Positions 7,528 to 38,323 of a stretch of 64,000 nucleotides of DNA are shown here, one piece after another. The DNA lies in assembly GCF_021729135.1 (NCBI RefSeq), contig NZ_JAJTWW010000016.1, positions 1-64,000 of the forward strand, written 5' to 3'. The first letter of the stretch is position 1. Every line of letters begins with the position of its first letter. The position numbers and the translations under genes were made by a program. The DNA is from Brevibacterium daeguense. GTDB taxonomy: Bacteria; Actinomycetota; Actinomycetes; Actinomycetales; Brevibacteriaceae. The notes under the pieces were generated by a model, which had not been told where the DNA came from, searched no databases, and saw only the letters and a list, made by a program, of their open reading frames with translations.

Positions 7528-7550
7528 TTAAACTATGAGCTTTAGATTAT
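7528..7550. promoter_or_regulatory. TetR-type operator, copy 5
   Basis: TTAAACTA (7528-7535), spacer TGAGCTT, TAGATTAT (7543-7550). It lies in the leader of acyl-CoA ligase 3. The right half contains TAGATT, which resembles a -10 hexamer, so binding could directly block RNA polymerase. Confidence 0.7.
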
Positions 7551-7772
7551 GGAGTCGGCCCCCGTCGGTCAAGAACTCTTCACTGCAATTCTCCGCCAGT
7601 CCACGGACCGCCTTCCGCCACCGGCCGCCGCTTCACGGACCGCTCGCCGATCATCACTTCCCGGATCACGCGCAACTCCCGGACCACCGCAGCCACCGAG
7701 TGGTCCGTCAGCGCCGGGCTCCGCGATTGACTCTGGTGATGCCGAGAGAGCTGATATACGCTCCCCTTAACG

Positions 7773-7793
7773 TTATCTAACGTCTTTAGATTG
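7773..7793. promoter_or_regulatory. TetR-type operator, copy 6
   Basis: TTATCTA (7773-7779), spacer ACGTCTT, TAGATTG (7787-7793). It abuts the ribosome-binding site GGAG and ends 9 bp before the ATG of the DUF35 gene. The promoter must lie upstream or overlap the site, so binding could block initiation or early elongation. Confidence 0.72.
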
Positions 7794-7802
7794 GAGAACC
7801 GG

Positions 7803-9442: not shown

Positions 9443-9511
9443 CCATCCAGGCGCCCACCGCAGATTGCGAGAGGACGCCGGTTCTGCGGAGCGCCCGAGG
9501 GACTTGCCACG

Positions 9512-9534
9512 TTAATCTATAGCCGTTAGATTAA
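9512..9534. promoter_or_regulatory. TetR-type operator, copy 7 (perfect palindrome)
   Basis: TTAATCTA (9512-9519), spacer TAGCCGT, TAGATTAA (9527-9534). The 8-bp arms are perfectly symmetric, so this copy defines the consensus. It ends 43 bp before the ATG of the Rieske oxygenase. Confidence 0.8.
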
Positions 9535-9577
9535 GAGGCGAAGCAGCACCATACAGTCACAAGGAAGTGAGGTCGCC

Positions 9578-10819: not shown

Positions 10820-10820
10820 C

Positions 10821-11828
10821 ATGGCGATGATCGAATGGGCATGGTGCAGCGAGCTCTCCCGTGATGCGGACGCCGAGGTCCGGCAGCTCCTCGAGTCCGC
10901 CGAGGACTACGACCGCGAGCAGGGATTCTCCGTCGTCGACTACCGGGCGCTGCAGAACGACCTGGCTGATCCGGCCTCGCCCAACAAGGTGATGCTCGTC
11001 CACTACATCCCCTCGGAGCAGGCCGAGCGGGAACGCGACGACGTGCAGCGCACGCTCGCCGCAGTGCTCAGGGCCGAGATGTCGGAGGAGGGCGCTGCCC
11101 GGGTGTCGTACACGGTCGCACCGCACCTCCGATCCTTGGGAGTGACCACGCTGCTTGTCGAGGAGATCGGTCTGCCCGGTCAGGACGGCAGCGCGTGGAG
11201 CGCGGCGGGAATCAGGGAAGTGACTGCCTGGGCGCGCGGCAATCACCCGGCGGCCGACCGGCTGACTTCCCGCTTCGGGATTCCCGCGACGGACGAGGTG
11301 TGGCGACTCTTCCGGGAGCTCAAGGAGGAGGACCGCTCGCTTCCTGCGCACGAGTTCACCTTCCGGCCGGCCGCCGGCGACGTTGATCGCGCTTCGGTCC
11401 TCGACTACGAGAACCATGTCGAGGACACGCAGCGCCCGGCAATCGGACTGTCCCAGGACGTCAGCCGTCCGGATCGTCGCGTCCTGCTGGTCGAGGACAC
11501 CGCCGGAGCCATTGTCGGAGCGGCGGCCATCGACCTGCGGACGACTTCCGATCTTGTCATCGGGCGCTGGGCGGACATCACCTATGCGAGCACCGATCCG
11601 ACCGCGGACGAGCGGCTCATCCTGTGGTTGCTCGACGCCGCGGTGAAGGAGGCCCGCACCCTTCCGATGGACACCCTCATCCTCCACGTCGACCCGGACG
11701 ACGAGGACCTGGTGCACGCGGTCCGCCTGCTCGGATTCGTCCACGAACGGACCGATGTCGCCTATCGGGCAGGAGTCGGCGCGGATTCGTCACAGGAGGA
11801 GCGCCTGCCCTCGCTGCCGACGGTCTGA
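10821..11828 (+). CDS. Double GNAT-like acyltransferase
   Basis: A 335-residue protein reading like two GNAT-like halves. Residues 60-160 hold RVSYTVAPHLRSLGVTTLLVEE and residues 180-320 hold VLLVEDTAGAIVGAAAID and ADITYASTDPTADERL. It may transfer an acyl group or have lost catalysis. Mycothiol synthase is another two-GNAT protein, but key motifs could not be matched. The ATG lies 1 bp after the Rieske gene stop and its GGAGG is within the Rieske coding end, so the two are co-translated. The link to the Rieske step suggests a role in substrate handling, but this is inference. Confidence 0.7.
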   Translation: MAMIEWAWCSELSRDADAEVRQLLESAEDYDREQGFSVVDYRALQNDLADPASPNKVMLVHYIPSEQAERERDDVQRTLAAVLRAEMSEEGAARVSYTVAPHLRSLGVTTLLVEEIGLPGQDGSAWSAAGIREVTAWARGNHPAADRLTSRFGIPATDEVWRLFRELKEEDRSLPAHEFTFRPAAGDVDRASVLDYENHVEDTQRPAIGLSQDVSRPDRRVLLVEDTAGAIVGAAAIDLRTTSDLVIGRWADITYASTDPTADERLILWLLDAAVKEARTLPMDTLILHVDPDDEDLVHAVRLLGFVHERTDVAYRAGVGADSSQEERLPSLPTV

Positions 11829-11860
11829 ACCTCACTCCAGATTCGCGGGCGGGGCCGGAA

Positions 11861-12511
11861 TCAGCCGACTCGGAAGAGTTCGCCGGATTCCAGTCCCGCC
11901 CGCGCCATCGTTCCCACGATGAAGCTGCGGGCCTGCTCGCGCAGGAAGTCCTCGGAGTCGCGGAAGCTGTGGTCGAGAATCGATCTGAGCGTCGGGTACT
12001 TGTCCTCGTCGAGGTGCCCGAACCCGAGGTCGTCGGTGTCGGTGCCGCTCACAGTGCCCATCAAGGCAGAGGCAGTCGCCAAGCTCTCCACCCCGTCCAG
12101 CAGGAGCAGCACGAGTTCCTGCGGAATCCCGGCGTTCGACAGGATCGTCGCGCCCTTCTCATACAGGGAGGCGATCAAGCGCCGCGGAGTGTGGGAGACA
12201 AGCACGGCGGCGGCGTGGGGATGGGCCATCACGGCACGCCGGTAGCCGATGGCCATCTCCACCATCCAGTTCGCCCAGTCGTCGTCCTGCGCGAAGTTCG
12301 GAGGCTCGGCCTGCCTGATGACGGCTCGCGCCACCCCGGACAGGAGCTCAGACTTATCCGTGAAGTGGTAGTAGAGCGAAGCGGTCTTGACGCCCAGCCG
12401 CCGGGCGAGAGCCGGCATGCTGAACTTCTCCAGACCACTCTCGTCGATCATCGCCAGCGCCTCATCAACGATGCCCTTGCGCTGCAGAATCGGCGTCGAT
12501 GGACGTCCCAT
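11861..12511 (-). CDS. TetR-family repressor, probable master of the regulon
   Basis: A 216-residue TetR regulator. The N-terminal helix-turn-helix spans residues 10-55, with LARRLGVKTASLYYHF as the recognition region. The C-terminal ligand domain is helical. It is divergent from the reductase gene, and a palindrome at 12592-12612 lies between them, consistent with autoregulation. The same palindrome occurs in front of the ligases, the DUF35/thiolase pair and the Rieske gene, so it probably represses all of them until an acyl-CoA or free acid binds. The ATG at 12511 follows GAGAGGAG. Confidence 0.88.
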   Translation of the reverse strand: MGRPSTPILQRKGIVDEALAMIDESGLEKFSMPALARRLGVKTASLYYHFTDKSELLSGVARAVIRQAEPPNFAQDDDWANWMVEMAIGYRRAVMAHPHAAAVLVSHTPRRLIASLYEKGATILSNAGIPQELVLLLLDGVESLATASALMGTVSGTDTDDLGFGHLDEDKYPTLRSILDHSFRDSEDFLREQARSFIVGTMARAGLESGELFRVG

Positions 12512-12591
12512 ACCGCTCCTCTCATGGACGGTGGCGAGTTCTGTCTCGTATCGACTGGGGACTTGTTCGTCGACTGCCAGACAGGTCTACA

Positions 12592-12612
12592 ATAACTAAA
12601 GTCTATAGATAA
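12592..12612. promoter_or_regulatory. TetR-type operator, copy 8 (tetR/reductase divergon)
   Basis: ATAACTA (12592-12598), 7-nt spacer, TAGATAA (12606-12612). It lies 19 bp before the reductase ATG and about 80 bp before the tetR start, so one site could control both directions. Confidence 0.72.
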
Positions 12613-12631
12613 AATCTCTGGAAAGCCGCTC

Positions 12632-13591
12632 ATGACTGCTCAGACATTCGAACTTACCATCACCGATCTGCACCGACTCAAGCGGAACGTGCTCTGGGTG
12701 ACCCTGAGCCCGCGGGAAGGCTTCGAGCTTCCGCACTGGTCCCCGGGCGCGCACATCGGAGTGCACCTGACGGACGACCTCATCCGCCAGTATTCGCTGT
12801 GCGGCGACAGCGACGACCAGACCGTCTATCGCATCGCCGTCCAGCTCGAACCGGAGTCACGCGGGGGATCGCAGTTCATCCACGAGAACTGGAAGCTCGG
12901 CCAGGCCGTCACGGTGGAGGCACCGCGCAACAACTTCGAGCTGGTCGAGGCCCCCAGCTATCTCTTCATCGCCGGCGGCATCGGCATCACTCCCCTGCTG
13001 CCGATGATCAAGAAGGCCGAAGACGAAGGCCGGATATGGGCCCTGAGCTACCGGGGCCGCTCGCGCCAGGACATGCCGTTCGCGAACTCACTCGTCAGGA
13101 ACCTGGGCGACAACGTCACGATCCTCGCCAGCGACGAGGGCAACCGCCTGTCCGTCAAGGAGATCGTCGGGGAGCCGGTGCCGGGACGCGCAATCTACTG
13201 CTGCGGGCCGACAGCAATGCTCGACGACGCCGAGGCACTGGCCCGCAGCAGCAGCCTGGCGCCGGACGAGACGATGCACCTGGAGCGATTCGTCAACGCC
13301 CATGCCGTCCCGGATGACGGGGACCACGAGTTCGACGTCGAGCTGGCGCAGTCCGGGCGCACACTCACCGTACCCGCCGACAAGACGGTGATCGACACCC
13401 TCGAGGAGGCCGGCGTCGACGTGTCGTACTCATGCCGCGAGGGCACCTGCGGCACGTGCGAGACCGAGGTGCTCGAGGGCGAGGTCGACCACCGCGACTC
13501 CATCCTCGACGATGATGAGAAGGCCGCGAACGACTGCATGTTCATCTGCGTCTCGCGGTGCAAGGGGAAGAGGCTCGTGCTCGACCTGTAG
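12632..13591 (+). CDS. Phthalate-dioxygenase-reductase-type oxidoreductase
   Basis: A 319-residue one-protein electron-transfer chain. The N-terminal flavin-binding barrel carries RQYSLCGD near residue 50. The NAD-binding domain has FIAGGIGITPLLPMI near residue 110 and YCCGPTAMLDDAE near 190. The C-terminal plant-type [2Fe-2S] ferredoxin has Cys268, Cys273, Cys276 and Cys306 (C-x4-C-x2-C-x29-C). This order matches class IA reductases that pass electrons from NADH to Rieske oxygenases. It should serve the Rieske oxygenase at 9578. A regulon palindrome sits 19 bp upstream. Ligase 4, the acyl-CoA dehydrogenase and TRAP protein 2 follow on the same strand. Confidence 0.92.
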   Translation: MTAQTFELTITDLHRLKRNVLWVTLSPREGFELPHWSPGAHIGVHLTDDLIRQYSLCGDSDDQTVYRIAVQLEPESRGGSQFIHENWKLGQAVTVEAPRNNFELVEAPSYLFIAGGIGITPLLPMIKKAEDEGRIWALSYRGRSRQDMPFANSLVRNLGDNVTILASDEGNRLSVKEIVGEPVPGRAIYCCGPTAMLDDAEALARSSSLAPDETMHLERFVNAHAVPDDGDHEFDVELAQSGRTLTVPADKTVIDTLEEAGVDVSYSCREGTCGTCETEVLEGEVDHRDSILDDDEKAANDCMFICVSRCKGKRLVLDL

Positions 13592-13741
13592 GAGCTCGAC
13601 AAGGAGCGACAGCGCGACCTGCAGCAGCTCGTGCTCGTCTTGGCGGGGAAGAAGAAAACTCGTCTCAGCCATTGCCTCCGACGTCCCCGCCTTCTAATGT
13701 CGCCTTATCGATCGTTTGAATGCCGCGAAGATGGGGCCCGC

Positions 13742-15295
13742 ATGCTGCACAGTGAATTGACTTATGCCCGCATCGCCAACAGGGCGGTGCGCTGCTTCGC
13801 TCCGCGGACTGCTGTGATCGACGGGGGCTATTCGGCGACGTATGAGCAGCACTTCTCCCGCGTGGCGTCGCTCATCGCTGAGCTCGAAGAGCGCGGCATC
13901 CGGCGCTACGGCGTTCTCGCCTACAACGGGCACGAGTTCCTGGAGCTGTGGCACGCCGCCCTGTGCGGCCCGGGAACCATCGCTCCCCTGAACTTCCGCC
14001 TGGCTGCCCACGAGCTGCGTCAGATCATCTCCGACTCCGGAATGGACGCCCTGCTCGTCGACAGCTCCTGGCGACAGCTCGGGGCCGAGGCGGCGGAGGG
14101 CACGGGAGTCCCCCTCGTCGACATCCGCGAGATCTGCGGGACGGTCGTCCGGGACGGCACGGACGGCACCGCCGCGGGCGAGCCGAAGGGCTCCCCGGTC
14201 CGCTTCGACGAGCCCCCTGAGGACGGGATCGCAGCGCTGATGTACACCGGCGGGACCACCGGCACCCCGAAGGCCGCGGTCCTGAGCAACCGCGCGATGG
14301 TCCTCAACCTCCACCACATGGACAGGCTGCTCGACACCGGTCCGGACATGCGGTTCCTGCTGCACAGCCCGATGTTCCACGGCGGTCCAGTCTACGGCGT
14401 GATGAATCCGCTGGGCGCGGGCGGCTCCGTCGTCCTGATTCCGAAGTTCGACGTCGACGACTTCGGCGACGCGCTGCTGACGACCGGGGCCAACGCCACT
14501 CAGATGGGTCCGACCATGCTTCGGATGCTCCTCAATCGCTACTCCGACGACCTCACGCCGCTGCGGTGCCTTCGCACCCTGCTCTACGGCACCGCCCCCA
14601 TCACCCGCGGTCTGGTCGAGGAGGTGCTCGAGAAGCTGCCCGACCTCCGGCTGAACAACGGCTACGGCATGACGGAGGCCACCTCTGCACTGACGATCCT
14701 CACCCACCACCAGCACGTCGCCGACGGCCTCAAGCGCGTCGACTCCGTGGGGCGGCCGTTCCCCGGGGTCGACATCAGGATCGTCGGGCTGGACGGCCGG
14801 GAGTGCGCCGCGGACCAGGTCGGGGAGATCCAGGTGCGGGCGGGCAATCTGATGGACGAGTACTGGAACCGTCCGGAGCTCACCGAGAAGGCCTTCGACG
14901 GCGGCTGGTACCACTCCGGGGATCTCGGCTTCCTCGACGACGAGGGATTCCTCTACGTCGTCGACCGGCTGGGGGACATGATCATCTCCGGCGGGGAGAA
15001 CGTCTACTCCGCAGAAGTCGAGAACGTGCTGTCGCGACATCCCGCCGTCAGCCAGGTCGCAGTGATCGGCAGGGCCGACGAAACCTGGGGTGAGCGCGTT
15101 CATGCGGTGATCGTCCTCCATCCCGGCGTCGTCGCCACGCCCGAGGAGCTCGACAGCTTCTGCCGACCACATCTTGCCGGCTACAAGATCCCCCGCTCCT
15201 GGCAGTTCCGGGACGAGCCGCTGCCGGTCTCCGGCGTCATGAAGATCAACAAACGCGCACTTAAGGAAGAGAGCTCCCTCGATGTCGAGGCCTGA
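13742..15295 (+). CDS. Acyl-CoA ligase (AMP-binding, ANL family) 4
   Basis: A 517-residue ligase. The P-loop is MYTGGTTGTPKAA near residue 165, YGMTEATS near 310, SGDLGFLDD near 400 and the hinge is DRLGDMIISGGENVYSAEVE. The Lys in GVMKINK near residue 501 is the probable catalytic one. It is more like fatty/cinnamic acyl-CoA ligases than ligases 1-3. The ATG at 13742 was chosen because homology to the family begins just after it. An in-frame ATG at 13697 would add an Arg-rich stretch. It lies 150 bp after the reductase and overlaps the acyl-CoA dehydrogenase by 14 bp, so it is probably in one operon. Confidence 0.88.
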   Translation: MLHSELTYARIANRAVRCFAPRTAVIDGGYSATYEQHFSRVASLIAELEERGIRRYGVLAYNGHEFLELWHAALCGPGTIAPLNFRLAAHELRQIISDSGMDALLVDSSWRQLGAEAAEGTGVPLVDIREICGTVVRDGTDGTAAGEPKGSPVRFDEPPEDGIAALMYTGGTTGTPKAAVLSNRAMVLNLHHMDRLLDTGPDMRFLLHSPMFHGGPVYGVMNPLGAGGSVVLIPKFDVDDFGDALLTTGANATQMGPTMLRMLLNRYSDDLTPLRCLRTLLYGTAPITRGLVEEVLEKLPDLRLNNGYGMTEATSALTILTHHQHVADGLKRVDSVGRPFPGVDIRIVGLDGRECAADQVGEIQVRAGNLMDEYWNRPELTEKAFDGGWYHSGDLGFLDDEGFLYVVDRLGDMIISGGENVYSAEVENVLSRHPAVSQVAVIGRADETWGERVHAVIVLHPGVVATPEELDSFCRPHLAGYKIPRSWQFRDEPLPVSGVMKINKRALKEESSLDVEA

Positions 15296-18026: not shown

Positions 18027-18602
18027 ATGGCACAGCTCATCTCGACCCTCTTCATCACCGCCGACAACATCCCGGAGATCGACTTCGCCTGGCACATGCC
18101 CTACTTCGACGAGCACATGAGCCGTGCCGTCGACGAGGACTACCGCACCAGCGACGTCCTGCTGTTCGGCCGTCACACGTACGACAGCTTCGCCGGCGCA
18201 TGGCCCGAGCGCGAGGCGGCGGGTGGTGAGGATGCGGCGTTCGCCAAGCGGCTGGGCGACACCCGCAAGGTCGTGGTCTCGCATCAGCCCCTCGAGTTCT
18301 CCTGGCGCAACTCCGAGCAGCTGGCAGGCGAGCTGGTCCCGGCGGTCGGCGCGCTCAAGGCCGACCCGAACGTGCGCGGCATTCTCATTCCGGGGTCGAT
18401 CTCGGTCGTCCATCAGCTGCTGGCAGTGGGGCTGATCGACGAGCTCCGCCTGCTCGTGCATCCGGTCGCGGCGCGCAAGGGCCGCAGGCTGTTCGACGAG
18501 GGCGAGCCGCCGTACCACTTCGCCGTCATCAGGGCGGAGGTGTTCCCGAGCGGCGTCATCCGAGTCATCTATTCGCCGACCCCTCCGCCAGTCGTCCGGT
18601 GA
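18027..18602 (+). CDS. RibD C-terminal/dihydrofolate-reductase-like protein
   Basis: A 191-residue single-domain protein of the RibD_C/DHFR-like group. The pattern DVLLFGRHTYDSFAGAWP near residue 45 and LIDELRLLVHPVAARKGRRLF near 140 are typical. These are NADPH-dependent reductases or of unknown function; most annotations call them dihydrofolate reductase family proteins. The ATG follows GGAAGGAC. Its 3' end overlaps the end of hutH by 38 bp, tail to tail. No functional link to the hut genes can be claimed. Confidence 0.8.
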   Translation: MAQLISTLFITADNIPEIDFAWHMPYFDEHMSRAVDEDYRTSDVLLFGRHTYDSFAGAWPEREAAGGEDAAFAKRLGDTRKVVVSHQPLEFSWRNSEQLAGELVPAVGALKADPNVRGILIPGSISVVHQLLAVGLIDELRLLVHPVAARKGRRLFDEGEPPYHFAVIRAEVFPSGVIRVIYSPTPPPVVR

Positions 18603-20235
18603 GCACCGCGCCGTCGGTGTCGACGAGCGTGTGCTGGAGCGGGCGGACCGCCTCGGCAGCGGCAACCAGCCGGCCGTCGACCACCCGGGCGACGGCCTCG
18701 GCGAGTTCGGGCGACTGGAAGCGGTCGGGGCCGGGACCCGGCACGGCTGTGCGCAGCTCGGCCACCAGCGCCGAGGTGACCGGCCCCGGCGCCTCCTCGC
18801 GCAGGTCCGCGGCACGGGCGGCGGCGCTGTACTCGATGCCGAGCACGCGGGCGAGGCCGGTGACCGACCTCCGCAGCTTGCGCGCGGCGGTCCAACCCAT
18901 CGAGACGTGGTCCTCCTGCATCGCCGACGACGGGATCGAGTCGACCGAAGCGGGAGTCGCCTGCCGCTTCATCTCGGAGACGATGCCCGCCTGCGAGTAG
19001 TGCGCGATCATCAAGCCCGAGTCCACGCCGGGGTCCGCGGCGAGGAACGGCGGCAGGCCCTGGCTCCGAGCAACATCCATGAACCGGTCGGTGCGGCGCT
19101 CGGCGATCGAGGCGACATCCGCGGCGACGATCGCCAGGAAGTCCAGGGCATAGGCGAGCGGCGCGCCGTGGAAATTGCCGTTCGAGGACACCGAGCCGTC
19201 GTCGAGCACGACCGGATTGTCGATTGCGGCGCGCAGTTCGCGGGCAGCGGTCCGGGCTGCGAAGGCGGCGGTGTCGCGGGCGGCGCCGGTGACCTGTGGG
19301 GCGCAGCGCAGCGAGTACGCATCCTGCACCAGGTGCGTGGAGTCCTTGTGCGCAGCGACCATGGGCGAGCCCGCGAGCGCCTCCCGCATGTTCGCCGCGC
19401 TGGCGGCCTGCCCCGGATGAGGCCGCAGCGGCTCGTGCAGGTCGGGCATGAACACTCGGTCGGTGCCGCGCTGGGCCTCGACGCTCATCGCCGCGGTGAG
19501 GTCGGCGGCGGTGAAGAGGTTCTCGAGGTCGAACAGCGCCAGGATCAGCATGCCGAGCATGCCGTCGGTGCCGTTGACGAGCGCCAGCCCCTCCTTCTCC
19601 GCGAGCACTAGTGGCGTGATGTCGGCGGCGGCGAGCGCCTCGGCGGCCGGCATTTCGAACTCCCCTCCCGAGGCGCCCGCGGCAGCGTGGGAAGCGCCGC
19701 TTGCAGCGGCGTCGTCTCCCGGGCCCGAGGCGCCTCGCACCAGCACCGGGCCCTCCCCCATCGCGGCGAGCGCGCAGGCCGACAGCGGTGCGAGGTCGCC
19801 CGAGCACCCGAGCGATCCGAACTCGTGGACGACCGGGGTGATGCCCGCGTTGAGCATCGCGACATAGGTGTCGAGCACCTCGGCGCGCACGCCCGTCCGC
19901 CCGGTGGCCATGGTGCGAGCGCGCAGCAGCATGAGCGCGCGGACGACCTCGCGCTCGACCGGTTCGCCGACGCCTGCCGCGTGGGAGCGGATGAGCGATC
20001 TCTGCAGCTGGGTGCGGAGCTCGGCAGGGACCTGACGCTGGGCAAGAGCGCCGAAGCCGGTGGACACGCCATACACCGGTCGATTCGCGTGTGCGAGGGC
20101 GTCGACGGCCCGGCGGGAGGCCGCCACCGCCGCACGCACGTCGTCCGGGACGCGGACCCGAGCCTCATGACGGGCGACGGCGACGATGTCGGCGAAGGTC
20201 AGGGAATCTGGGCGCAGGTCGATGGGGACGCTCAT
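18565..20235 (-). CDS. hutH: Histidine ammonia-lyase
   Basis: A 556-residue lyase that removes ammonia from L-histidine to give urocanate. The cofactor-forming loop reads GSLGCSGDLAPLS with Cys144-Ser145-Gly146 where most enzymes have Ala-Ser-Gly; the Ser and Gly needed for cyclisation remain. Tyr55 in RPVYGVSTGFGALA matches the active-site Tyr. A stretch of about 35 residues rich in Gly, Ala and Ser near residue 170 (GASGPGDDAAASGASHAA) looks like a lineage insertion. The ATG at 20235 has GAGAAGG upstream, 12 bp after hutI, so the genes are co-transcribed as hutU-hutI-hutH. Confidence 0.95.
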   Translation of the reverse strand: MSVPIDLRPDSLTFADIVAVARHEARVRVPDDVRAAVAASRRAVDALAHANRPVYGVSTGFGALAQRQVPAELRTQLQRSLIRSHAAGVGEPVEREVVRALMLLRARTMATGRTGVRAEVLDTYVAMLNAGITPVVHEFGSLGCSGDLAPLSACALAAMGEGPVLVRGASGPGDDAAASGASHAAAGASGGEFEMPAAEALAAADITPLVLAEKEGLALVNGTDGMLGMLILALFDLENLFTAADLTAAMSVEAQRGTDRVFMPDLHEPLRPHPGQAASAANMREALAGSPMVAAHKDSTHLVQDAYSLRCAPQVTGAARDTAAFAARTAARELRAAIDNPVVLDDGSVSSNGNFHGAPLAYALDFLAIVAADVASIAERRTDRFMDVARSQGLPPFLAADPGVDSGLMIAHYSQAGIVSEMKRQATPASVDSIPSSAMQEDHVSMGWTAARKLRRSVTGLARVLGIEYSAAARAADLREEAPGPVTSALVAELRTAVPGPGPDRFQSPELAEAVARVVDGRLVAAAEAVRPLQHTLVDTDGAVLTGRLAEGSANR

Positions 20236-20247
20236 GATGGGACCTTC

Positions 20248-21561
20248 TCAGCTCGCAGGTTGATTCGCCGCGATCTGCTCGCCGGCGCGGTACACCTTGG
20301 CGATCAGCTGCACCCCGGGCCGATAGGCCAGGTGCCGGTAGGACGGGGCGTCGAGAATGCTGAAGTCAGCCCGGGCGCCGACGGTCAGCCGCCCGATGTC
20401 CGCGCGGTCGAGGGCCCTTGCCCCGCCGGCGGTGGCCGCCCACACGGCCTGGTCGACGGTGAAGCGCATGTCGCGGACGGCCACGGCGATGCAGAACGGG
20501 ATCGAGTTGGTGAAGCAGGACCCGGGATTGCAGTCGCTCGCTATCGCCACCGTGGCCCCGGCCGCGAAGTACCGGCGCGCATCCGGGTACGGCTGCCGGG
20601 TGGAGAATTCGACGCCGGGGAGCAGGGTGACGACTGTGCCGGCCGCGGCGAGCGCGGCGAGGTCCTCGTCCGAGGCGAAGGTCGCGTGGTCGGCGCTGAC
20701 GCAGCCGGTGCGGGCGGCCAGCTGCAGCGCCCCGCCCGCGGTGAGCTGGTTCGCGTGCAGGCGTGGTCGCAGGCCGTGGCCCTTGCCGGCCGTGATGATC
20801 CGCTCCGCCTGCTCGACGGTGAATGCGCCTTCCTCGCAGAACACGTCGATCCACTTCGCCTGACCGGCGGCCGCGGGGATGATCTCCTCGATGACGAGGT
20901 CGACGTAGCCGTCCGGGTTGTCCAGGTACTCCGGGGGCACCACGTGGGCGGCCATGAGCGTTGACTCCTCGGTGTGACGGTTGATGATCCGCAGCGCGCG
21001 CAGCTCGTCGTCGAGGGTGAGCCCGTAACCGGTCTTGATCTCGAAGGTGGTGGTGCCCGAGCGCTCGGCTTCCCCGAGGAGCCGGACGAGGTTGGCCTCG
21101 AGCTCCTCCTCGCTCGCCTCCCGGGTAGCGGCCACCGTCGTGGCGATGCCACCTGCGGAATAGGGTTCTCCCGCCACCCGGGCGGCGAACTCCGCGGACC
21201 GGTCGCCGGCGAACACGAGGTGGTTGTGGCTGTCGACGAAACCCGGGATCACGGCGCGGCCTCCTGCGGAGATGTGGCGGACGCGAGGGGAGGCCGGATG
21301 TCCGGAATCGGCAGACGAGGCCTGGCCGCTGTCAGCCGGGACCGGCGGGACTCCTGGGACACCCGGGACAGCCGGGACAGCCTGAGAGTCGGCGACCGCC
21401 TCGGCGGGCAGGCGGGCCATCGGAAGCTCGGTCTGGGGCCCGGCCCAGATGACGCGGCCGCCCTCGATCAGCAGCGCCGCATCCCGGATCACGCCCAGGA
21501 GATCGGGTCGCGCGGGATCGTTTGTGACGAGTTCGGCGATCTCGGTGACGAGCAGTCTCAT
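20248..21561 (-). CDS. hutI: Imidazolonepropionase
   Basis: A 437-residue amidohydrolase that opens the imidazolone ring to N-formimidoyl-glutamate. [17 protein letters not shown] supplies the metal-binding His-x-His, [11 protein letters not shown] is in the barrel, and [15 protein letters not shown] holds the late conserved Asp region. Near residue 70 there is a low-complexity insertion rich in Pro and Ser ([17 protein letters not shown]). The ATG at 21561 is preceded by GAGAGGTG. It lies 14 bp downstream of hutU. Confidence 0.94.
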
Positions 21562-21575
21562 CCGGCTCACACCTC

Positions 21576-23381
21576 TCACTCCGCCGGCTCCGCGTAGTCG
21601 GCCTCGACGTAGTCCGCCTCGACCTCGTCGACATTTCGGACGTCGACTGCCACCTCCCGGTCGGCTGCAGGCCGCACGTCGAGCTCCGGGTCCATCGGGA
21701 TCCGCACCCCCCGCTCGGCCGCCACCTCCCGCGCCCGGTAGTACCCCGCGTCCACGTGCCGGATGATGCCGGTGCCCGGATCGTTCGTGAGCAGCCGGGC
21801 GAGCTTGCGGGCGGCCAGCTCGGAGCCGTCGGCCACCGACACCTGACCGGCGTGGATCGACCGGCCCATCCCCACCCCGCCGCCGTGGTGGATGGACACC
21901 CAGGTGGCGCCGGAGGAGGTGCTGACCAGCGCGTTGAGCAGCGGCCAGTCCGCCACCGCGTCGGTGCCGTCGAGCATCCCCTCGGTCTCCCGATACGGAC
22001 TGGCGACCGAGCCGGAGTCGAGGTGATCGCGGCCGATGACGATCGTCGCCGAGACCTTCCCCTCGGCGACGAGCTGGTTGAACAGCAGTCCCGCCTTCTC
22101 CCGCTCGCGGTAGCCCAGCCAGCAGATCCGGGCGGGCAGGCCCTCGAACTCGACGTGCTCCGCCGCCGCGTCGAGCCAGCGGTGCAGGGACTCGTTCTCC
22201 GGGAACAGTTCCTTGAGAGCGGCGTCGGTGACCGCGATGTCGGCCGGGTCGCCTGACAGGGCGACCCACCGGAACGGCCCCATGCCCTCGCAGAACAGTG
22301 GTCGGACGTAGGCCGGCACGAAGCCGGGGAATTCGAAGGCGCGCTCGTACCCGGCCTTGCGTGCCTCGTCGCGGATCGAATTGCCGTAGTCGAACACCTC
22401 GGCACCGCGGTCCTGGAATCCGACCATCGTCGCCACGTGCGTGGCCATCGATTCCTCGGCCCGGAGGGTGAACTTCTCCGGATCCTCCTCCGCCTCGGTC
22501 CGCCAGTCCTCGAACGCCACCCCGAGCGGCAGATAGGACAGCGGGTCGTGCGCAGAGGTCTGGTCGGTGACGATGTCGACTTCTGCCGCCTCGGGCCGGC
22601 CGAGGAGGGCGGGGAGGACCTCCGCGGCGTTGCCGACGAGCCCCACCGACAGCGGACGCCCTGCCCGCTTGGCCTCGATGACCCGGGCCAGGGCGCGCTC
22701 GAGATCATCGGCCACCTCGTCGAGGTAGCGCTTGGCCGCCCGCCGGTCGAGCCGGCGCCTGTCGACGTCCACGATGAGGCAGGTGCCCCCGTTGAGCGTG
22801 ACCGCGAGCGGCTGCGCCCCGCCCATTCCGCCGCAGCCGGCGGTGACGGTGAGCGTGCCGGCCAGGGTGCCGCTGAAGCGCTTGCGCGCGACGGCGGCGA
22901 AGGTCTCATAGGTGCCCTGCAGGATGCCCTGGGTGGCGATGTAGATCCAGGAGCCGGCTGTCATCTGCCCGTACATCATCAGGCCCTCGGCCTCGAGCTT
23001 GCGGAAGTGCTCCCAGTTCGCCCAGTCGCCCACCAGGTTCGAGTTGGCGATGAGCACCCGAGGCGCCCACTCGTGGGTGCGCAGCACGCCCACCGGCTTG
23101 CCGGACTGGATGAGCAGCGTCTCGTCGTCCTCGAGGTCGTCGAGAGTGCGGACGATCGCGTCGAAGGCCTCCCACGACCGGGCGGCCCGGCCGGTGCCGC
23201 CGTAGACGACCAGATCGGCCGGTGATTCGGCGACCTCCGGGTCGAGGTTGTTCATGAGCATCCGCTTGGCGGCTTCGGTCTGCCAGGACTTGGCGGTGAT
23301 CTCCGTGCCGCGTGGGGCGCGGACGGTACGGTCCGGATCGTGGCGGGTGAAGGACTGCTGGGCGGGCGACGACATCGTCAT
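21576..23381 (-). CDS. hutU: Urocanate hydratase
   Basis: A 601-residue urocanase converting urocanate to imidazolonepropionate with tightly bound NAD+. Diagnostic motifs are [12 protein letters not shown] near residue 58, the NAD-binding [18 protein letters not shown] near 180, and [15 protein letters not shown] near 410 with the active-site Cys. The ATG at 23381 has GGAG 7 nt upstream; a second ATG two codons later is possible. It is slightly longer than typical 555-residue enzymes, mostly at the C-terminus ([16 protein letters not shown]). It is divergent from hutG across 258 bp that should hold both promoters. Confidence 0.95.
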
Positions 23382-30321: not shown

Positions 30322-32736
30322 CTACCGCCCCAGCAGATCGAGGCCGGCCCGAACGATCGACGCCTCGTCGATGCCGTGCAGCTTGTAGGCCTCCTGCACC
30401 GAGGACGCCTGCCCGAAGGACGTCACGCCGAGGTTGATGGTCCGGTCGCCGCGGATGCCCGCCAGGAATGCCAGCGTGTGGGGGTGGCCGTCGAGCACCG
30501 TGACAAGAGGTGCGGGTGAGTCGGGCGGGAAGAGCGCCTCGGCGATGGCCGACCGCTGTCCTGCCGCGACCCGGTGCCGCTCCTGCACCGACCGGAACAG
30601 CAGGTCGGGGCTGGTCAGGCACACCACTCCGGCGCGGATGCCGAAGGATTCGAGCTTCCGGGCCGCGCCGACGACCTCGGTCATCATCGCGCCCACCCCG
30701 ACGAGGGTGACCTGGTCCTCCGACGCCGGATGGTCGCTGATCCGGTAGCCGCCGGCCACCACCTGCTCGCGGCGCCGCTCCAGCAGCACGGGATCCTCCG
30801 GAAGCCCGGCGATCGACTGGTCGACGGGCCGGGTGGACAGCCGGAAGTATGCCGAATGGCCATCGGGGCGGCCGATCGCGCGCATCGCCTCGAGCATCGT
30901 CCATTCCAGGTCCTGGGCGAATGCCGGCTCCCAGGACACGAGCTCCGGGACCTCCAGCGTCACCGACGGGGTGTTGAACGACTGATGCGCCCCGCCTTCG
31001 GGCGCGAGGCTCACGCCGGACGGGGTACCGATCATGATCGATTGCCCGCCGGCGTACATCCCGAAGTGCCACGGCTCCAGCGCCCGGTTGATGAACGGGT
31101 CGTACATCACGCCGATCGGGATCAGCGGCTGACCCCAGCGGCTGAACGTGCTGCCGAGCTCCCCGGCGAGGCTGACGAGGTTGACCTCGGCGATCCCGAG
31201 CTCGATGTGCTGGCCGCCGGAGACCTCCTGCCACTTGAGCACCCGCTCGCGGTCGTCGGAGAACCAGTCGTGCCGCCCGGCCAGCGACCACACTCCGGTC
31301 TTGTTGATCCAGCCGCCCAGGTTCGTCGACGTCGCCACGTCCGGGCTGACCGTGACCACCCGGTCGGCGATCTCGGGTGCACCGCGTTTGAGGTCGGACA
31401 GGAACCGGCCCAACGTGGCCTGCGTGGAGGTGACGGCCTTGTGCGACCAGCCGAGCGCCTCGGGAACCCCCTCGATCCGGGTCTGCTCGATCGGCTGCCG
31501 GCGCAGCCGCTCGCGGGTGGCGGCGCACAGCTGACCGGCCGGAGTGTCATCCGGGAACCGCTGCCACGGGTCCTCCAGGGACATGCCGGAGATCTCCGCG
31601 AGCTCGTGCATCTGCGATTCGGTGAGCTGGGCGGCGTGGTTGTTCGGGTGACCCTCGGTCGCCAGGCCGCGGCCCTTGATGGTGTAGGCGAAGATCACGG
31701 TCGGGCGGGTGTCGTCGATCCGGTCGAACGTCGCCATCAGCTGGGAGATGTCGTGTCCGCCCAGGTCGCGGACCACCTCGGCCAGCTCCCGAGGTGTCAG
31801 CGATTCCACGAGTGCGCGCAGTCCCGACTCCTCGGCGTCGGCGACGCCGGCCAGCACGCGCTCGGGCACCTCGTCCGGGTGGGAGCGCAGGATCCGCTGG
31901 TACTCCTCATTGGGCATGTCGGTCATCCGCTGCTCGAAGGCCGCGCCGCCGGGCCCGGCGAACAGCTGCTGGATGCGCGCACCCCACTTGCAGGTCAGCA
32001 CCTGCCAGTCGGCGGCGGCGAACATGCCCTGGAGGCGCGCGATCTGCTTGTCCGGGATGATCCGGTCCAGCGACTGCCGGTTGAGGTCGACGATCCACAC
32101 CGCCTCGCCGAGCTGGCGGACCTCCGGGTCGATGATCGCCTCCCAGACTGCGCCCTCGTCCATCTCCGCATCACCGAGCAGCGAGTAGAAGCGGCCGGCG
32201 TCGGGCGCCTGCGGGAAGTGCTCCTTGAGGTAGCGGTGCGAGAGCGCGGCCCACAGCGGGGCGGTCGCGCCGATGCCGACGGAGCCGGTGGAGAAGTCGA
32301 CCGTGTCCGGGTCCTTCGACCGCGACGGGTACGGCTGCAGGCCGCCCTTGGAGCGCAGGGTGGTGAGGTACTTCTCGTCGAGGTCGCCGAGCAGGTAGTT
32401 GATCGCGTGGAGCGCCGGGGACGCGTGCGGCTTCACCGACACCCGGTCGGCGGCGGTGAGCTGCGAGAACCACAGCGCCGTCATGATGCCGGCCATCGAG
32501 GCGCTCGAGGACTGGTGCCCACCGACCTTGACCCCGTCGGGGTTCTCCCGCCCGCGGTTAGCGGCGTCGATGATCGCCGTCGACAGCCACAGCACCCGCT
32601 GCGCGATCTGATCGAGCACCGACTCGTCCGGGGAGGCGGTCGCGGTCAGCGGGCGCGAGTTCACGCTCGGCGGGCTGGCCTGCACCGCGGTCTCGAACTG
32701 CCCGGTCTCCCGCTCGTCGTGGTGCGAAGTCGTCAT
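30322..32736 (-). CDS. Thiamine-diphosphate 2-oxoacid dehydrogenase E1 (AceE/MdeB-type)
   Basis: An 804-residue transketolase-like E1. The ThDP site shows GGHQSSSAS near residue 73 and GDAEMDEGAVWEAI near 190; a second domain holds SPDVATSTNLGGW near 480. The arrangement matches homodimeric E1 enzymes such as AceE and the 2-oxobutyrate-specific MdeB. It is about 80-100 residues shorter than typical AceE (about 885-910). No E2 lipoyl protein or E3 gene lies next to it, so it may borrow these or act independently. The ATG at 32736 follows GAGGAGC. It is divergent from an enoyl-CoA hydratase. Confidence 0.85.
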   Translation of the reverse strand: MTTSHHDERETGQFETAVQASPPSVNSRPLTATASPDESVLDQIAQRVLWLSTAIIDAANRGRENPDGVKVGGHQSSSASMAGIMTALWFSQLTAADRVSVKPHASPALHAINYLLGDLDEKYLTTLRSKGGLQPYPSRSKDPDTVDFSTGSVGIGATAPLWAALSHRYLKEHFPQAPDAGRFYSLLGDAEMDEGAVWEAIIDPEVRQLGEAVWIVDLNRQSLDRIIPDKQIARLQGMFAAADWQVLTCKWGARIQQLFAGPGGAAFEQRMTDMPNEEYQRILRSHPDEVPERVLAGVADAEESGLRALVESLTPRELAEVVRDLGGHDISQLMATFDRIDDTRPTVIFAYTIKGRGLATEGHPNNHAAQLTESQMHELAEISGMSLEDPWQRFPDDTPAGQLCAATRERLRRQPIEQTRIEGVPEALGWSHKAVTSTQATLGRFLSDLKRGAPEIADRVVTVSPDVATSTNLGGWINKTGVWSLAGRHDWFSDDRERVLKWQEVSGGQHIELGIAEVNLVSLAGELGSTFSRWGQPLIPIGVMYDPFINRALEPWHFGMYAGGQSIMIGTPSGVSLAPEGGAHQSFNTPSVTLEVPELVSWEPAFAQDLEWTMLEAMRAIGRPDGHSAYFRLSTRPVDQSIAGLPEDPVLLERRREQVVAGGYRISDHPASEDQVTLVGVGAMMTEVVGAARKLESFGIRAGVVCLTSPDLLFRSVQERHRVAAGQRSAIAEALFPPDSPAPLVTVLDGHPHTLAFLAGIRGDRTINLGVTSFGQASSVQEAYKLHGIDEASIVRAGLDLLGR

Positions 32737-32905
32737 TGATGCTCCTCGGAATCCTGGCCGGCCGCAGCTCAGTGGACCGTTCATCCGCTCACGCTACTGC
32801 AGATGCAGGGATTTGGATGGCCAGAGCGCCTGTGACGGTAAAGGTGAGCATGGGATTGTGGAGGACGGACCACCCGCCACACAGTCGAGCAGAAGAGAGC
32901 ACGAA

Positions 32906-34598: not shown

Positions 34599-34619
34599 AG
34601 TGTCCCATTCTGGACCACC
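34599..34619 (+). promoter_or_regulatory. Activator box of the flavin reductase promoter
   Basis: AGTGTCCCA-TT-CTG followed by GACCACC; it has partial dyad symmetry (GTGTCC/GGACCAC). A closely matching box lies at 38303-38323 on the minus strand upstream of the luciferase-like monooxygenase. The AcoR-like protein between the two genes is the likely binder (inference). Confidence 0.7.
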
Positions 34620-34639
34620 TCCGTTCCCAGCCCGCGCCG

Positions 34640-34645
34640 CATACT
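34640..34645 (+). promoter_or_regulatory. CATACT -10 element of the flavin reductase promoter
   Basis: CATACT begins 41 bp after the start of the activator box at 34599. The monooxygenase promoter has the same hexamer at the same distance. No clear -35 is visible at 17 bp, consistent with activator dependence. No TGGCAC-N5-TTGC (sigma54) pattern is present. Confidence 0.6.
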
Positions 34646-34710
34646 CGTCATGAACGTCGCGGTCCTGGTGTGGATCGGGATGACCGCTGCACATGGAAGG
34701 GGTGCCAACA

Positions 34711-35220
34711 ATGTCGGAATACAAGGACGTATCGCCGCAACGGATGCGCGAGGTGATGGGCAGCTTCTGCTCTGGGGTGACCGTGGTCGCGACGCAGACT
34801 GAAGACGGACCGGTCGGCTTCACGTGTCAGTCATTCACCTCGCTGTCGCTGGAGCCGGCGCTGATCACCTTCAACCCGTCGCGCACCTCGACGTCGTGGC
34901 CGCGGATTCGGGAGGTGGGACGGTTCTGCGTCAATATCCTGGGTGGAAAGCACCAGGAGCTCTCCGGCGGTTTCGCCCGGTCGGGTGCGGACAAGTTCGC
35001 CGGAGTCGCCCATGAACCCACTCCTCTGGGCAATCTCCGCCTCGTGGGTGCTCTCGCATGGATCGACTGCACGCTGCATGCCGAATATGACGGCGGTGAC
35101 CACACGATTGTGGTGGGCCAAGTGCAGGCGATGGAGGCGGCCCAGCACATTGATCCGCTGCTGTTCTATCGAGGAAGGTACGCCGCACTGGCCGCTGCTA
35201 TCGAGCTTGCCGCGTCGTGA
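34711..35220 (+). CDS. Flavin reductase of a two-component monooxygenase (HpaC-like)
   Basis: A 169-residue NAD(P)H:flavin reductase domain protein. FCSGVTVVATQTEDGPVGFTC near residue 20, SLEPALITFNPSRTS near 48 and VGRFCVNILGGKHQELS near 68 are typical of the FMN-binding split-barrel reductases that hand reduced flavin to partner monooxygenases. The ATG at 34711 has AAGGGG upstream. The partner is probably the luciferase-like monooxygenase at 37060, since both promoters share one activator box. It ends 3 bp before the end of the convergent regulator gene. Confidence 0.88.
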   Translation: MSEYKDVSPQRMREVMGSFCSGVTVVATQTEDGPVGFTCQSFTSLSLEPALITFNPSRTSTSWPRIREVGRFCVNILGGKHQELSGGFARSGADKFAGVAHEPTPLGNLRLVGALAWIDCTLHAEYDGGDHTIVVGQVQAMEAAQHIDPLLFYRGRYAALAAAIELAAS

Positions 35221-35223
35221 TCG

Positions 35224-36957
35224 TCAGCCCAGCACCTTGTATCGCTTCATCTTCCGGTACAGGGTGCTGCGGCTGATGCCCAGATAGTCTGCAGCGCGGC
35301 ACTTGTTGCCGCCGAAATTGTGCAATGCGTCGACGATGGACTGCCGTTCCAGCGCTTCCAGATGCGTCAGGCTCGAAGCATGGACCGGGTCGGTCAGGAA
35401 ATCGGGCAGCATCTCAGAAGTGATCCGCAGACCATCACTTGCGTCACCCTCGGCGACGCGCAGATGCGCGGTCACCGCGTCGACGACCGTGGCGAAGGTG
35501 CGGAAGTTATCGGCCCACCGGATGTGCCGGACGAGGTGCACTGCTGCAGGAGACAGCACGACTGGCTTCCCGACCTGGGCGCTGAGGGCTTCGGTGAGGA
35601 GATGCGGGAGAAGTTCCCGCAGGCGATCCAAGGAAACGGTCACGACCTGCACTGCACCGGTGACATCGCTCGCCGTCTCGCTGATGGCGACTTCTGGTGC
35701 CGGCTTCCCGAGGCGGTGAGCGTGCTCCCGGAGCGCCTGAGCAATCCGCCGCCGGCCGGTGTTGGGTTCGCCCCACACGACAACTCGGTCTGCACGGGCT
35801 GCGCGCTGGATATCGGAGCGGATCAAGGAGAACGGTGCCGTTGAGAGGAATCGGTCGAAATCGGCATCGTGAGCCTCGGCCTCCGGAGTACTGGGTGGAG
35901 TGTGCGGCCCTTCGGGCTGCCTCAGATCCACCCCACCAGCAGTCGGGGCGTGGTCGTGAGCTCCGGACTCGCGTGTGTCGACGGGGATGAGCCGGCAGAG
36001 CAGAATGCGTGTGCCTTCGCGGGAAGGGCCGGTGATGCTGACCGGAGTCTCGACGACGTCGGCGTGAACATCGAATTCGCCGCTGGACAACGTCATTCGC
36101 CCGACGAAGGGATCACGGTTCAGCGTGGTGCGCAATTCTCGCAGCCGGAACAGGTCCTGAGGTGTCAGCAGGAACGTCGCGGCGTTGTTGAGCAACGTGG
36201 TGTGGTCGTCGGTCACCATCCCGGGCACGATCTCGTGCTTGATCTCCTGATTGAAGATGCTCTGGGCCGGATCGTCCATGTTCACCACAAGCCGTCGGAT
36301 CCGGTTCTCGATCTCGGTCGTGGCCTGCTTCAGCAGAGGCAGCGACAGATCATGCGCGTGCCCAGATGGCAGCACCAGTGACAATGAACCCAGGGTCCGG
36401 TTGTGCACCGGGCTGATCACCGGCACTGCGGCACACGTGAGGGTGTGCAGCCCATCGAGAAAATGCTCGGTCCCGGAGATGACGACCGGGCGACGCTCCT
36501 CGATCGAGGTGCCCAGCCCGTTCGTGCCGAGCGTGTCTTCCGAATAGACGAAGCCCTCTCCGGCGTTCATCGAATCCAGGCGGGCACGGACCCAGCCGTC
36601 AGTTCCGCGGCGTGCGATGATCCTGCCCCGTTCATCGCAGAGGATGAGCGCGGCAGGGGCGTCTGCAAGCAGTTTGGTGAGCTGATCGAGCACTCCGCCG
36701 GCCGACAGCGCCAGTGGTGATTCCGCGTCAAAGGAATCGTCATAGGCATCCGGAACCGATTCCGGCCGGATCCCGGCGCTCACGGTGCGACGCCAGGACC
36801 GTTGGACCACGTCGCGGATCCCGGCAGGACTCTGCCGAGCAGCGAGGAGCCCCCGCTCGAGAAGCTCAGCCCGGAAGCTCAACAGCGCGTCTGTCCGTTC
36901 TCGACCAGTCGGATCTGCGGCGCTGCCCGCGGCATGGTTCGTCTTCATAGTCTTCAT
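35224..36957 (-). CDS. AcoR/NtrC-like activator with degenerate AAA+ domain
   Basis: A 577-residue regulator. An N-terminal GAF-type sensory region (EGFVYSEDTLGTNGLGTSIE near residue 130) is followed by a central region where the enhancer-binding ATPase should be. There the Walker A is degraded to GEPNTGRRR near residue 400, and no GAFTGA loop for contacting sigma54 is visible. The C-terminus is a Fis-type helix-turn-helix (NKCRAADYLGISRSTLYRKM). Actinobacteria generally lack sigma54, so activation must be through sigma70-type polymerase. The ATG at 36957 was chosen because an upstream GTG (37017) lies inside a strong hairpin. Probable targets are the promoters at 34599 and 38323. Confidence 0.82.
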   Translation of the reverse strand: MKTMKTNHAAGSAADPTGRERTDALLSFRAELLERGLLAARQSPAGIRDVVQRSWRRTVSAGIRPESVPDAYDDSFDAESPLALSAGGVLDQLTKLLADAPAALILCDERGRIIARRGTDGWVRARLDSMNAGEGFVYSEDTLGTNGLGTSIEERRPVVISGTEHFLDGLHTLTCAAVPVISPVHNRTLGSLSLVLPSGHAHDLSLPLLKQATTEIENRIRRLVVNMDDPAQSIFNQEIKHEIVPGMVTDDHTTLLNNAATFLLTPQDLFRLRELRTTLNRDPFVGRMTLSSGEFDVHADVVETPVSITGPSREGTRILLCRLIPVDTRESGAHDHAPTAGGVDLRQPEGPHTPPSTPEAEAHDADFDRFLSTAPFSLIRSDIQRAARADRVVVWGEPNTGRRRIAQALREHAHRLGKPAPEVAISETASDVTGAVQVVTVSLDRLRELLPHLLTEALSAQVGKPVVLSPAAVHLVRHIRWADNFRTFATVVDAVTAHLRVAEGDASDGLRITSEMLPDFLTDPVHASSLTHLEALERQSIVDALHNFGGNKCRAADYLGISRSTLYRKMKRYKVLG

Positions 36958-36980
36958 TGACCACCGCCCTGTTGCTCGAA

Positions 36981-37021
36981 GGGTGTGCCGATCGTACTCG
37001 AAGAGTCCGATCGGCACACCC
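36981..37021 (-). terminator. 41-bp near-perfect hairpin between monooxygenase and regulator genes
   Basis: GGGTGTGCCGATCG (36981-36994) mirrors CGATCGGCACACCC (37008-37021); inside, ACTC (36996-36999) pairs with GAGT (37003-37006) around a 3-nt centre. Only one arm position is mismatched. It lies 38 bp past the monooxygenase stop and 23 bp before the regulator ATG, so it may be a terminator, an attenuator, or an operator for autoregulation. Confidence 0.75.
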
Positions 37022-37059
37022 CTGATGCGACTGCTGACAGCTGCCTCGGATCTGCGTCG

Positions 37060-38208
37060 CTACTTCCTCTCGGCGAAGTGCTTATCGGTCGCGGCCTGCA
37101 CTGCCTTCTCCACTCGGTCACCGAGCTCAGCCCACTGGTCGATCGACCGCTGCTCCGCAGCCCTGAGGCGGGTGGCTCGATTCTGGAACTGGGGCTTCAC
37201 ATGCTGAGCGAACAATTCATAGCTACGCCTGGTGGCAGCCGGATCAGCCCACTCGGCGTGCTGGATCAGATATGATCCGAAGCCGCCGTTGGACTGGGCC
37301 ACCAGCCGCTCGATCTGTTCGATGGCATCATCCGGGGTGCCGATCACCCCGAGACCGGATTCGGTCACCCACGCCAGACGTTCCTCGAAGGTTCGCCCTG
37401 CCGCTCGGAAGTGGGGAACCGCCAGCACGTCCTGCGTGTACGCACACCAACTCTCAAGACCGAAGCGGACATTCTCGATCGCCTGTTCCCGGGTCTCCGC
37501 AATATGCATCGGTCCGACCAGGCGCCACCGCGATCGGTCGGCAGTGGTGCCGAACTCCGCGGCGCGCTCCTCCATCACGTCCCAATGTGAAGCCAGCACA
37601 TCGAAGCCGGCCTTGGCCGTGGCGCCGATCGAGAGCAACGACAGACCGTGCTTGCCCGCGATCCGCGGACCCGTCGGCGAGGAGATCGCCGCGACTGCCA
37701 CCTCGAGCTCGTCGTTGAAGGGCGAATACTGAGTCTGAGCGTTTCGCAGGCGATAACGCGGAGTGTCAGCAGTGACTGCCTCACCGGCCAACAGCCGCAT
37801 CAGCACGTCCGTGTCCTCCTCCAGGGCTCCCCGCTGCTCCTCGATCTCCAGCCCGATCATCGTGGCATCCTGCGGCAGCGCCCCCGGACCCAGGCCCAGA
37901 ATGAAGCGGCCACGCGTGAGGTGATCGAGGAACAGTGCGCTGTCAGCGACATGGAAAGGGTTGTGATACGGCAACGAGAGAACGCCGGTCGCAAACTTGA
38001 TATTGCGAGTCTGCGGCGCCAGATGAGCGATGAACATCATCGGATCCGGAACGAGCTCATTGCCGGACGAGTGGTGCTCTCCAATCCACACCTCGTCGTA
38101 GCCGAGCTTGTCGAGCAGCTGGACCACCTCGATGTCACGGACGTACGCAGACGTGGGATCCTGACCGGCCGGGGTATGGAAGGGGGCCATGAAAATGCCG
38201 AACTTCAT
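37060..38208 (-). CDS. Luciferase-like flavin-dependent monooxygenase
   Basis: A 382-residue (beta/alpha)8 protein of the bacterial luciferase-like family. KFGIFMAPFHTPAG at the start, LGYDEVWIGEHHSSG near residue 42, PLGGG-type region HLTRGRFILGLGPGALP near 115 and VIGTPDDAIEQIERL near 305 are characteristic. It would use reduced FMN (or F420) to oxygenate an unknown organic substrate. A flavin reductase with the same promoter layout is encoded at 34711. The ATG at 38208 matches the family's usual N-terminus; a longer frame upstream is not supported. Confidence 0.9.
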   Translation of the reverse strand: MKFGIFMAPFHTPAGQDPTSAYVRDIEVVQLLDKLGYDEVWIGEHHSSGNELVPDPMMFIAHLAPQTRNIKFATGVLSLPYHNPFHVADSALFLDHLTRGRFILGLGPGALPQDATMIGLEIEEQRGALEEDTDVLMRLLAGEAVTADTPRYRLRNAQTQYSPFNDELEVAVAAISSPTGPRIAGKHGLSLLSIGATAKAGFDVLASHWDVMEERAAEFGTTADRSRWRLVGPMHIAETREQAIENVRFGLESWCAYTQDVLAVPHFRAAGRTFEERLAWVTESGLGVIGTPDDAIEQIERLVAQSNGGFGSYLIQHAEWADPAATRRSYELFAQHVKPQFQNRATRLRAAEQRSIDQWAELGDRVEKAVQAATDKHFAERK

Positions 38209-38276
38209 ATTAGCCACCGGGGCTCTCCTTCGAGTCGATGCAACGTTGGCGCACCATTGCGCCACTGGTAGCACTC

Positions 38277-38282
38277 AGTATG
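38277..38282 (-). promoter_or_regulatory. CATACT -10 element of the monooxygenase promoter
   Basis: CATACT on the minus strand (38282 down to 38277). It begins 41 bp downstream of the start of the activator box at 38323, the same distance and hexamer as upstream of the flavin reductase. Confidence 0.6.
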
Positions 38283-38302
38283 GGAGAAATCTCCTGGTTC
38301 CA

Positions 38303-38323
38303 GATGTGTCAGTTTGGGACACT
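38303..38323 (-). promoter_or_regulatory. Activator box of the monooxygenase promoter
   Basis: On the minus strand AGTGTCCCA-AA-CTG then ACACATC; the core GTGTC-N7-GACAC is a perfect dyad. It lies 115 bp before the monooxygenase ATG; the paired box lies 112 bp before the flavin reductase ATG. Confidence 0.72.

Follow-up and report, generated by a model that had tools for sequence, protein, structure and literature searches.

Genes at the locus

In the window, by which we mean the whole 64,000-nucleotide stretch analyzed here, a flavin reductase gene (PF01613, HsaB-like) occupies 34711-35220 on the forward strand. It is followed on the reverse strand by a regulator gene (35224-36957), whose product carries GAF and Fis-type HTH_8 domains and has no detected AAA+ domain, and by a luciferase-like (LLM) monooxygenase gene (PF00296; 37060-38208). 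The reductase and regulator genes are convergent and lie 3 bp apart (35220-35224). Between the monooxygenase stop and the regulator start sits a long, nearly perfect, GC-rich hairpin without a T-run (36976-37025, reverse strand), for which a 103-nt fold gives -49.1 kcal/mol and a z score of -4.73. No T-tailed terminators were found in the region, where shuffled sequences would yield 1.7. The hairpin is a possible terminator or attenuator limiting read-through. Since it overlaps the upstream GTG start at 37017, the ATG at 36957 is the likelier start of the regulator.

An LLM oxygenase and a flavin reductase are both present, as expected by domain content for a two-component LLM monooxygenase, and the two proteins are probably two halves of one oxygen-inserting enzyme. 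Neither reached any of the listed NCBIfam cut-offs. The nearest solved chain for the LLM protein is 3,6-diketocamphane monooxygenase (4uwm, E 2.6e-27, over residues 2-123 only); given this match and the recurrence of FMO-like (Baeyer-Villiger type) genes as targets of the regulator family, ketone oxidation would be a reasonable guess at the reaction. A genus search returned five LLM relatives, from 5 of 57 genomes and including a second copy in the window's own genome, and all five have a flavin reductase close by at 62-72% identity to that of the window. The second pair in the same genome (L093, G000:C34:366000-385000, at 8390-10319) is 50% (LLM) and 67% (reductase) identical to the first.

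Elsewhere in the window, at 30322-32784 on the reverse strand, lies a gene for an 820-aa AceE-like 2-oxoacid dehydrogenase E1 homologue (229 bits against the aceE cut-off of 860). It adjoins two enoyl-CoA hydratase genes and possibly belongs to the same catabolic island.

Two operators at one distance from matching hexamers

The sequence-only reading had described an identical box placed 41 bp before a CATACT hexamer on both strands, and that description is exact, coordinates included: the spacing from AGTGTCCCA-NN-CTG to CATACT is 41 bp both at 34599 (forward) and at 38323 (reverse), and AGTGTCCCANNCTG is matched with 0 mismatches at 34599-34612 (forward) and 38310-38323 (reverse). What that reading overlooked is a wider repeat, of which the box forms the left portion. 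Each box opens a 21-bp imperfect inverted repeat, designated here as operator 1 (AGTGTCCCATTCTGGACCACC, 34599-34619, forward, PWM score 19.0) and operator 2 (AGTGTCCCAAACTGACACATC, 38303-38323, reverse, PWM score 23.9). The -10-like CATACT hexamers at 34640-34645 (forward) and 38277-38282 (reverse, beginning at 38282) stand at +41 from the starts of operators 1 and 2, respectively, and a +41 hexamer is also seen in the regulator family.

From the hexamers, transcription is predicted to start near 34652 (forward) and 38270 (reverse). The operator centers at 34609 and 38313 would then fall at about -43, over the -35 position, where the two promoters match TTGACA at only 0-2 of six positions. The usual position of a class II activator overlaps the -35 region. 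On sequence grounds, the marks of a class II promoter are present: a -35-overlapping site, a fixed spacing to the -10 element, and a poor -35 element. A scan for consensus promoters found 0 against 0.6 expected by chance, so that their absence says little.

The distances from box to start codon fared less well as an element of the shared layout. The values of 112 bp (ATG 34711) and 115 bp (ATG 38208) are correct as counted to those codons. The second is less secure, since the monooxygenase could start just as well at a GTG at 38217, which follows GGAG by 7 nt, and the distance would then be 106 bp; because of this alternative, the start distances carry little weight.

How surprising the arrangement is depends on what is counted. 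Two exact copies of the box exist in the 3,555,487-base (3.56 Mb) assembly, both of them inside the window. With up to one mismatch it has 5 matches genome-wide against 11 for the backwards pattern, which is no enrichment, and a scan of the window with up to three mismatches gave 27 matches against 55 expected. The three other genome sites within one mismatch of the box (L003-L005) have no [TC]ANNNT at +41. Given the 5 matches against 11, the box alone is unremarkable; what stands out is that two exact copies each have the matching hexamer. The lack of enrichment at one mismatch would suit a chance coincidence, or the recent duplication of one promoter, as the source of the identical layout. 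Yet, apart from the operator arms and CATACT, the two promoter regions have little in common, and the offset is found again in other genomes; we regard such an origin as very improbable.

A regulator of enhancer-binding descent without detected sigma-54 machinery

At an E threshold of 0.001, Pfam recognizes only GAF and a C-terminal Fis-type HTH in the regulator, and no AAA+/sigma-54 interaction domain. The search for a sigma-54 gene was negative in the window genome (a 98% complete assembly; 0 of 1) and positive in 4 of 14 control genomes. Neither the detected domains nor the outcome of the sigma-54 search fits a sigma-54 enhancer-binding protein in the AcoR sense. NCBIfam returned weak enhancer-binding-protein matches only, all far under their cut-offs, the best being DhaR (93 bits against 551). 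With its N-terminal GAF domain, C-terminal Fis HTH, and palindrome of the family kind, the regulator falls instead with the actinobacterial MimR-type GAF/Fis-HTH proteins.

A family alignment of eight members (A1) has HTH_8 in all eight, GAF in six, an AAA lid in six, and the sigma-54 domain PF00158 in one. Its profile matches the ZraR, FleQ, and NtrC structure chains, and the solved DhaR chain 4lrx aligns with profile positions 34-237. These AAA lid and sigma-54 matches, together with the NtrC-type structures, point to enhancer-binding proteins as the ancestors of the family. One relative, a 405-aa protein encoded at 5893-7110 of the Rhodococcus sp. DN22 plasmid p1 locus (L114), is missing most of the middle AAA+ region in the alignment.

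The promoter travels with the regulator

No relative of the whole regulator-reductase-LLM arrangement was found in the genus, order, and phylum genomes searched. Likewise, searches of 57 genomes of the genus, 297 of the order, and 396 of the phylum reported no relative of the regulator with more than 39% identity; in the order and phylum, scoring was confined to the few best candidates from each genome. The idea that the box is an LLM-linked promoter was tried and rejected, the exact box occurring at 0 of 50 fetched LLM-relative loci (L007-L056). A second scan, with up to two mismatches and over a portion of these loci and of the LLM plasmid loci, placed no box before any LLM gene, nor is there one at that threshold before the LLM gene of the second pair in the window's own genome (L093). 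Since LLM relatives come without the box, the promoter appears to go with the regulator, not with the enzyme. A phylum search with the pattern GTGTTCCANNNTGGAACAC and one mismatch hit 4 of 396 genomes against 1 for the control, the pattern being too narrow, and a di-iron monooxygenase search at an overly strict E-value hit 0 of 201 genomes, an uninformative result.

The 41-bp geometry among regulator relatives

The spacing was examined at 57 loci with regulator relatives, drawn from actinobacterial genomes (including four same-genus loci) and four Rhodococcus plasmid loci. The offset of 41 was taken from the sequence-only reading of the window; the palindrome pattern was fixed after some sites were known, but without regard to the hexamer. 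Scored by GTGTNCCANNNTGGNACAC, 14 sites agree at 12-14 of 14 positions, where the reversed pattern yields 1; with 11 positions in agreement the 24 sites were barely above the 16 of the reversed control. A weighted, broader palindrome gave 26 sites against 0 for its reversed control.

Around these 26 palindromes, [TC]ANNNT stands at +41 in 19 of 52 oriented windows, against an average of 0.71 and a maximum of 4 at 69 other offsets. The hexamer is present on at least one side of 18 palindromes and absent from the other 8. The binomial P of 2e-22 for this peak overstates independence, the loci being related and including near-duplicates (L101/L102, L184/L188, and L163/L165). Outside the PWM training set the peak persists at 3/17, 3/20, and 5/46, against elsewhere means of 0.22, 0.22, and 0.58, in a test from which most strong hexamer-bearing sites had already been removed as training sites. 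At the weakest sites (PWM scores 6-10) the count at +41 is 5 of 113, barely above the elsewhere maximum of 4 (mean 1.37). The 52-window offset count and these outside-training-set PWM classes are the tests that do not select on the hexamer; the base composition of 20 family promoters is circular at hexamer positions 42 and 46, those promoters having been chosen by hexamer. Twelve further plasmid loci (4/28 at +41; elsewhere mean 0.54, maximum 3) point in the same direction as the main test and are weakly supportive, one of the four being close to a copy of L115. A recognizable site is missing at many regulator-family loci; the +41 rule, though strong, has exceptions.

The +41 hexamer usually points to a neighboring structural gene starting about 50-150 bp away, and at L111 and L115 it faces the regulator itself. 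A Pfam scan of 20 neighbor genes, two of them (at L159 and L161) from hexamer-less sites, recognized FMO-like oxygenases, aldehyde dehydrogenases, alpha/beta hydrolases, SDRs, an aromatic hydroxylase, a di-iron monooxygenase, LLM, hydantoinases, MFS, and a periplasmic binding protein; two genes had no Pfam match.

Several individual loci deserve mention. In L114, a single palindrome at 4735 lies between divergent genes with +41 hexamers on both sides (CATGAT and TACGTT), so that one operator possibly serves two promoters; the site at 5736 of L169 resembles it, with TACGGT on both sides. On Rhodococcus jostii RHA1 pRHL3 (L111), two operator-like sites near a family regulator have TACCGT and TACGGT at +41. 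That locus (6243-13929 and 18486-21650) also encodes an LLM protein 64% identical to the window's, with a mycofactocin-coupled SDR, F420-synthesis genes, and a flavin reductase.

The single preferred offset bears on the sign of regulation. A regulator acting as a repressor, with its palindrome blocking polymerase over the -35 region until inducer binds, would fit the palindromic form of the sites and their cover of the -35 position. Repression, however, would work without a fixed spacing, whereas the hexamer is concentrated at a single offset, and the -35 elements of the window's own promoters are poor. MimR and other characterized Fis-type regulators of catabolic clusters act as activators. 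Because of the one fixed spacing in particular, activation through polymerase contact is favored, and repression seems to us unlikely.

Operator type and the recognition helix

The two residues that follow LY in the HTH were used to class the recognition helices at 58 loci, the window included, and sites were sought within 1.5 kb of the regulator. Two operator types were compared: type A, GTGTNNCA-NNN-TGNNACAC, and type B, GTGTNCAG-NNN-CTGNACAC. With up to one mismatch, type A occurs at 13 of 35 loci of the R[K/R] class (reversed control 1) and type B at none, while type B occurs at 3 of 8 loci of the A[R/K]/SR class (control 0) and type A at none. Allowing two mismatches raises the matching type to 21 of 35 (control 5) and 5 of 8 (control 0), and the opposite type stays at 0 in both classes. 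Five loci of other helix classes have neither type, and ten loci were left unclassed. The table groups clades, so that its counts are not independent events. A search for added type B regulators matched 5 of 231 genomes and gave no new places.

Since operator type tracks the recognition-helix residue that follows LY, the pattern argues that the family regulators themselves would bind the palindromes. This matters for the window, where it could be supposed that a different protein binds the boxes and that the regulator lies between them by chance; binding by the regulator is there suggested by proximity, which is weak evidence alone. Against this supposition, like palindromes lie beside regulator relatives whose neighbors are mostly unrelated to the reductase and LLM genes, and the inner bases of the palindrome change with the recognition helix. 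We consider binding by a different protein quite unlikely, somewhat more so than repression.

A 40-bp variant at propane-monooxygenase promoters

The prm-type loci carry TCTCA-NNN-TGAGA palindromes. At L153, L156, L157, and L207, [TC]ANNNT was not found at exactly +41. Three prm-type promoters have instead TTNNNT at +40 with the palindrome: L157, L207 (Rhodococcus aetherivorans BW2 plasmid), and L208 (Rhodococcus sp. JS3073 plasmid), a feature spotted only after the four loci above had been checked for +41. At L153 and L156, which encode a related monooxygenase, the palindromes have neither hexamer. For the prmA promoter of Rhodococcus sp. BCP1, the promoter description gives a mapped start, a proposed -10 of TTGTAT, and a palindrome over the -35 region (PMC4428276). 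Should the spacing there equal that of L157, the BCP1 operator would be centered at about -43; the distance from hexamer to TTG start in L157 is about 5 bp shorter than that reported for BCP1.

A candidate mechanism and its reach

Taken together, the family palindromes with +41 hexamers, the poor -35 elements, the negative sigma-54 search, and the helix-linked operators make one activator at a fixed position, as the sequence-only reading had proposed, the best reading of the window. We put at roughly three in four the probability that the GAF/Fis-HTH regulator is a class II activator at both promoters, standing near -43 in place of a -35 element. A regulator dimer would bind each inverted repeat (34599-34619 and 38303-38323). 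With its center some 43 bp before the predicted start, the operator would cover the place of the lacking -35 hexamer, and the bound regulator would recruit a housekeeping-type RNA polymerase. The reductase and the LLM monooxygenase, although on opposite strands, would thereby be turned on together, probably in response to a catabolic substrate sensed by the GAF domain. Because the monooxygenase and regulator genes share a strand, transcription from the LLM promoter may also reach the regulator gene, giving positive feedback unless the hairpin stops it.

It is on balance probable that a wider pattern lies behind this locus: actinobacterial regulators of one clade, derived from sigma-54 enhancer-binding proteins and with the AAA+ domain decayed or lost, would have been remade as class II activators of ordinary promoters. 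They would share one operator-to-(-10) geometry, of 41 bp or, in the propane-monooxygenase branch, 40 bp, and would follow at least two operator codes, determined by the residue after LY. Family regulators sit by actinobacterial clusters handling ketones, alkanes, and other compounds, and if the pattern is true the regulons of many catabolic clusters should be readable from sequence. With such a constant geometry and an operator code open to reading, targets could be predicted and biosensors designed. The family would also help in studying the change of an ATP-driven activator into a recruiting one. Titles and abstract openings in the open-licence literature contained no description that we found of the operator, of the 41-bp spacing, or of a mode of action for these regulators that dispenses with sigma-54; within that scope, the window is one instance of a promoter geometry for which no description was found.

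Relation to known systems

For the smo genes of Mycobacterium chubuense NBB4, the published account states that control by the nearby AcoR-like regulator has yet to be confirmed by experiment (PMC8784404). On the enzyme side, the window pair is like 3,6-diketocamphane monooxygenase and luciferase, the two-component FMNH2 enzymes, in combining an LLM-family protein with a separate reductase; it differs in that the window LLM protein and reductase lie below the listed NCBIfam cut-offs.

The regulator resembles DhaR and AcoR in having a GAF domain and a Fis HTH. AcoR proper is a sigma-54 activator, whereas the window protein has no detected AAA+ domain and its genome no detected sigma-54 gene. 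An evolutionary analogy may be found in TyrR-like proteins and other sigma-70-acting descendants of enhancer-binding proteins, which share with the present family an NtrC-like ancestry and independence of sigma-54; the TyrR arrangement of operator and promoter differs from that of the window.

A Fis-type regulator also belongs to the prmABCD/mimABCD propane monooxygenase, MimR being that of mycobacteria. In Rhodococcus sp. BCP1, as in the window, a Fis-family regulator adjoins a monooxygenase cluster, and the passage on its promoter compares the palindrome to the Fis site of E. coli, with no operator for the family and no rule on spacing stated (PMC4428276). The prm-type promoters nonetheless differ from those of the window in the element that follows the operator, TTNNNT at +40 in three promoters as against [TC]ANNNT at +41.
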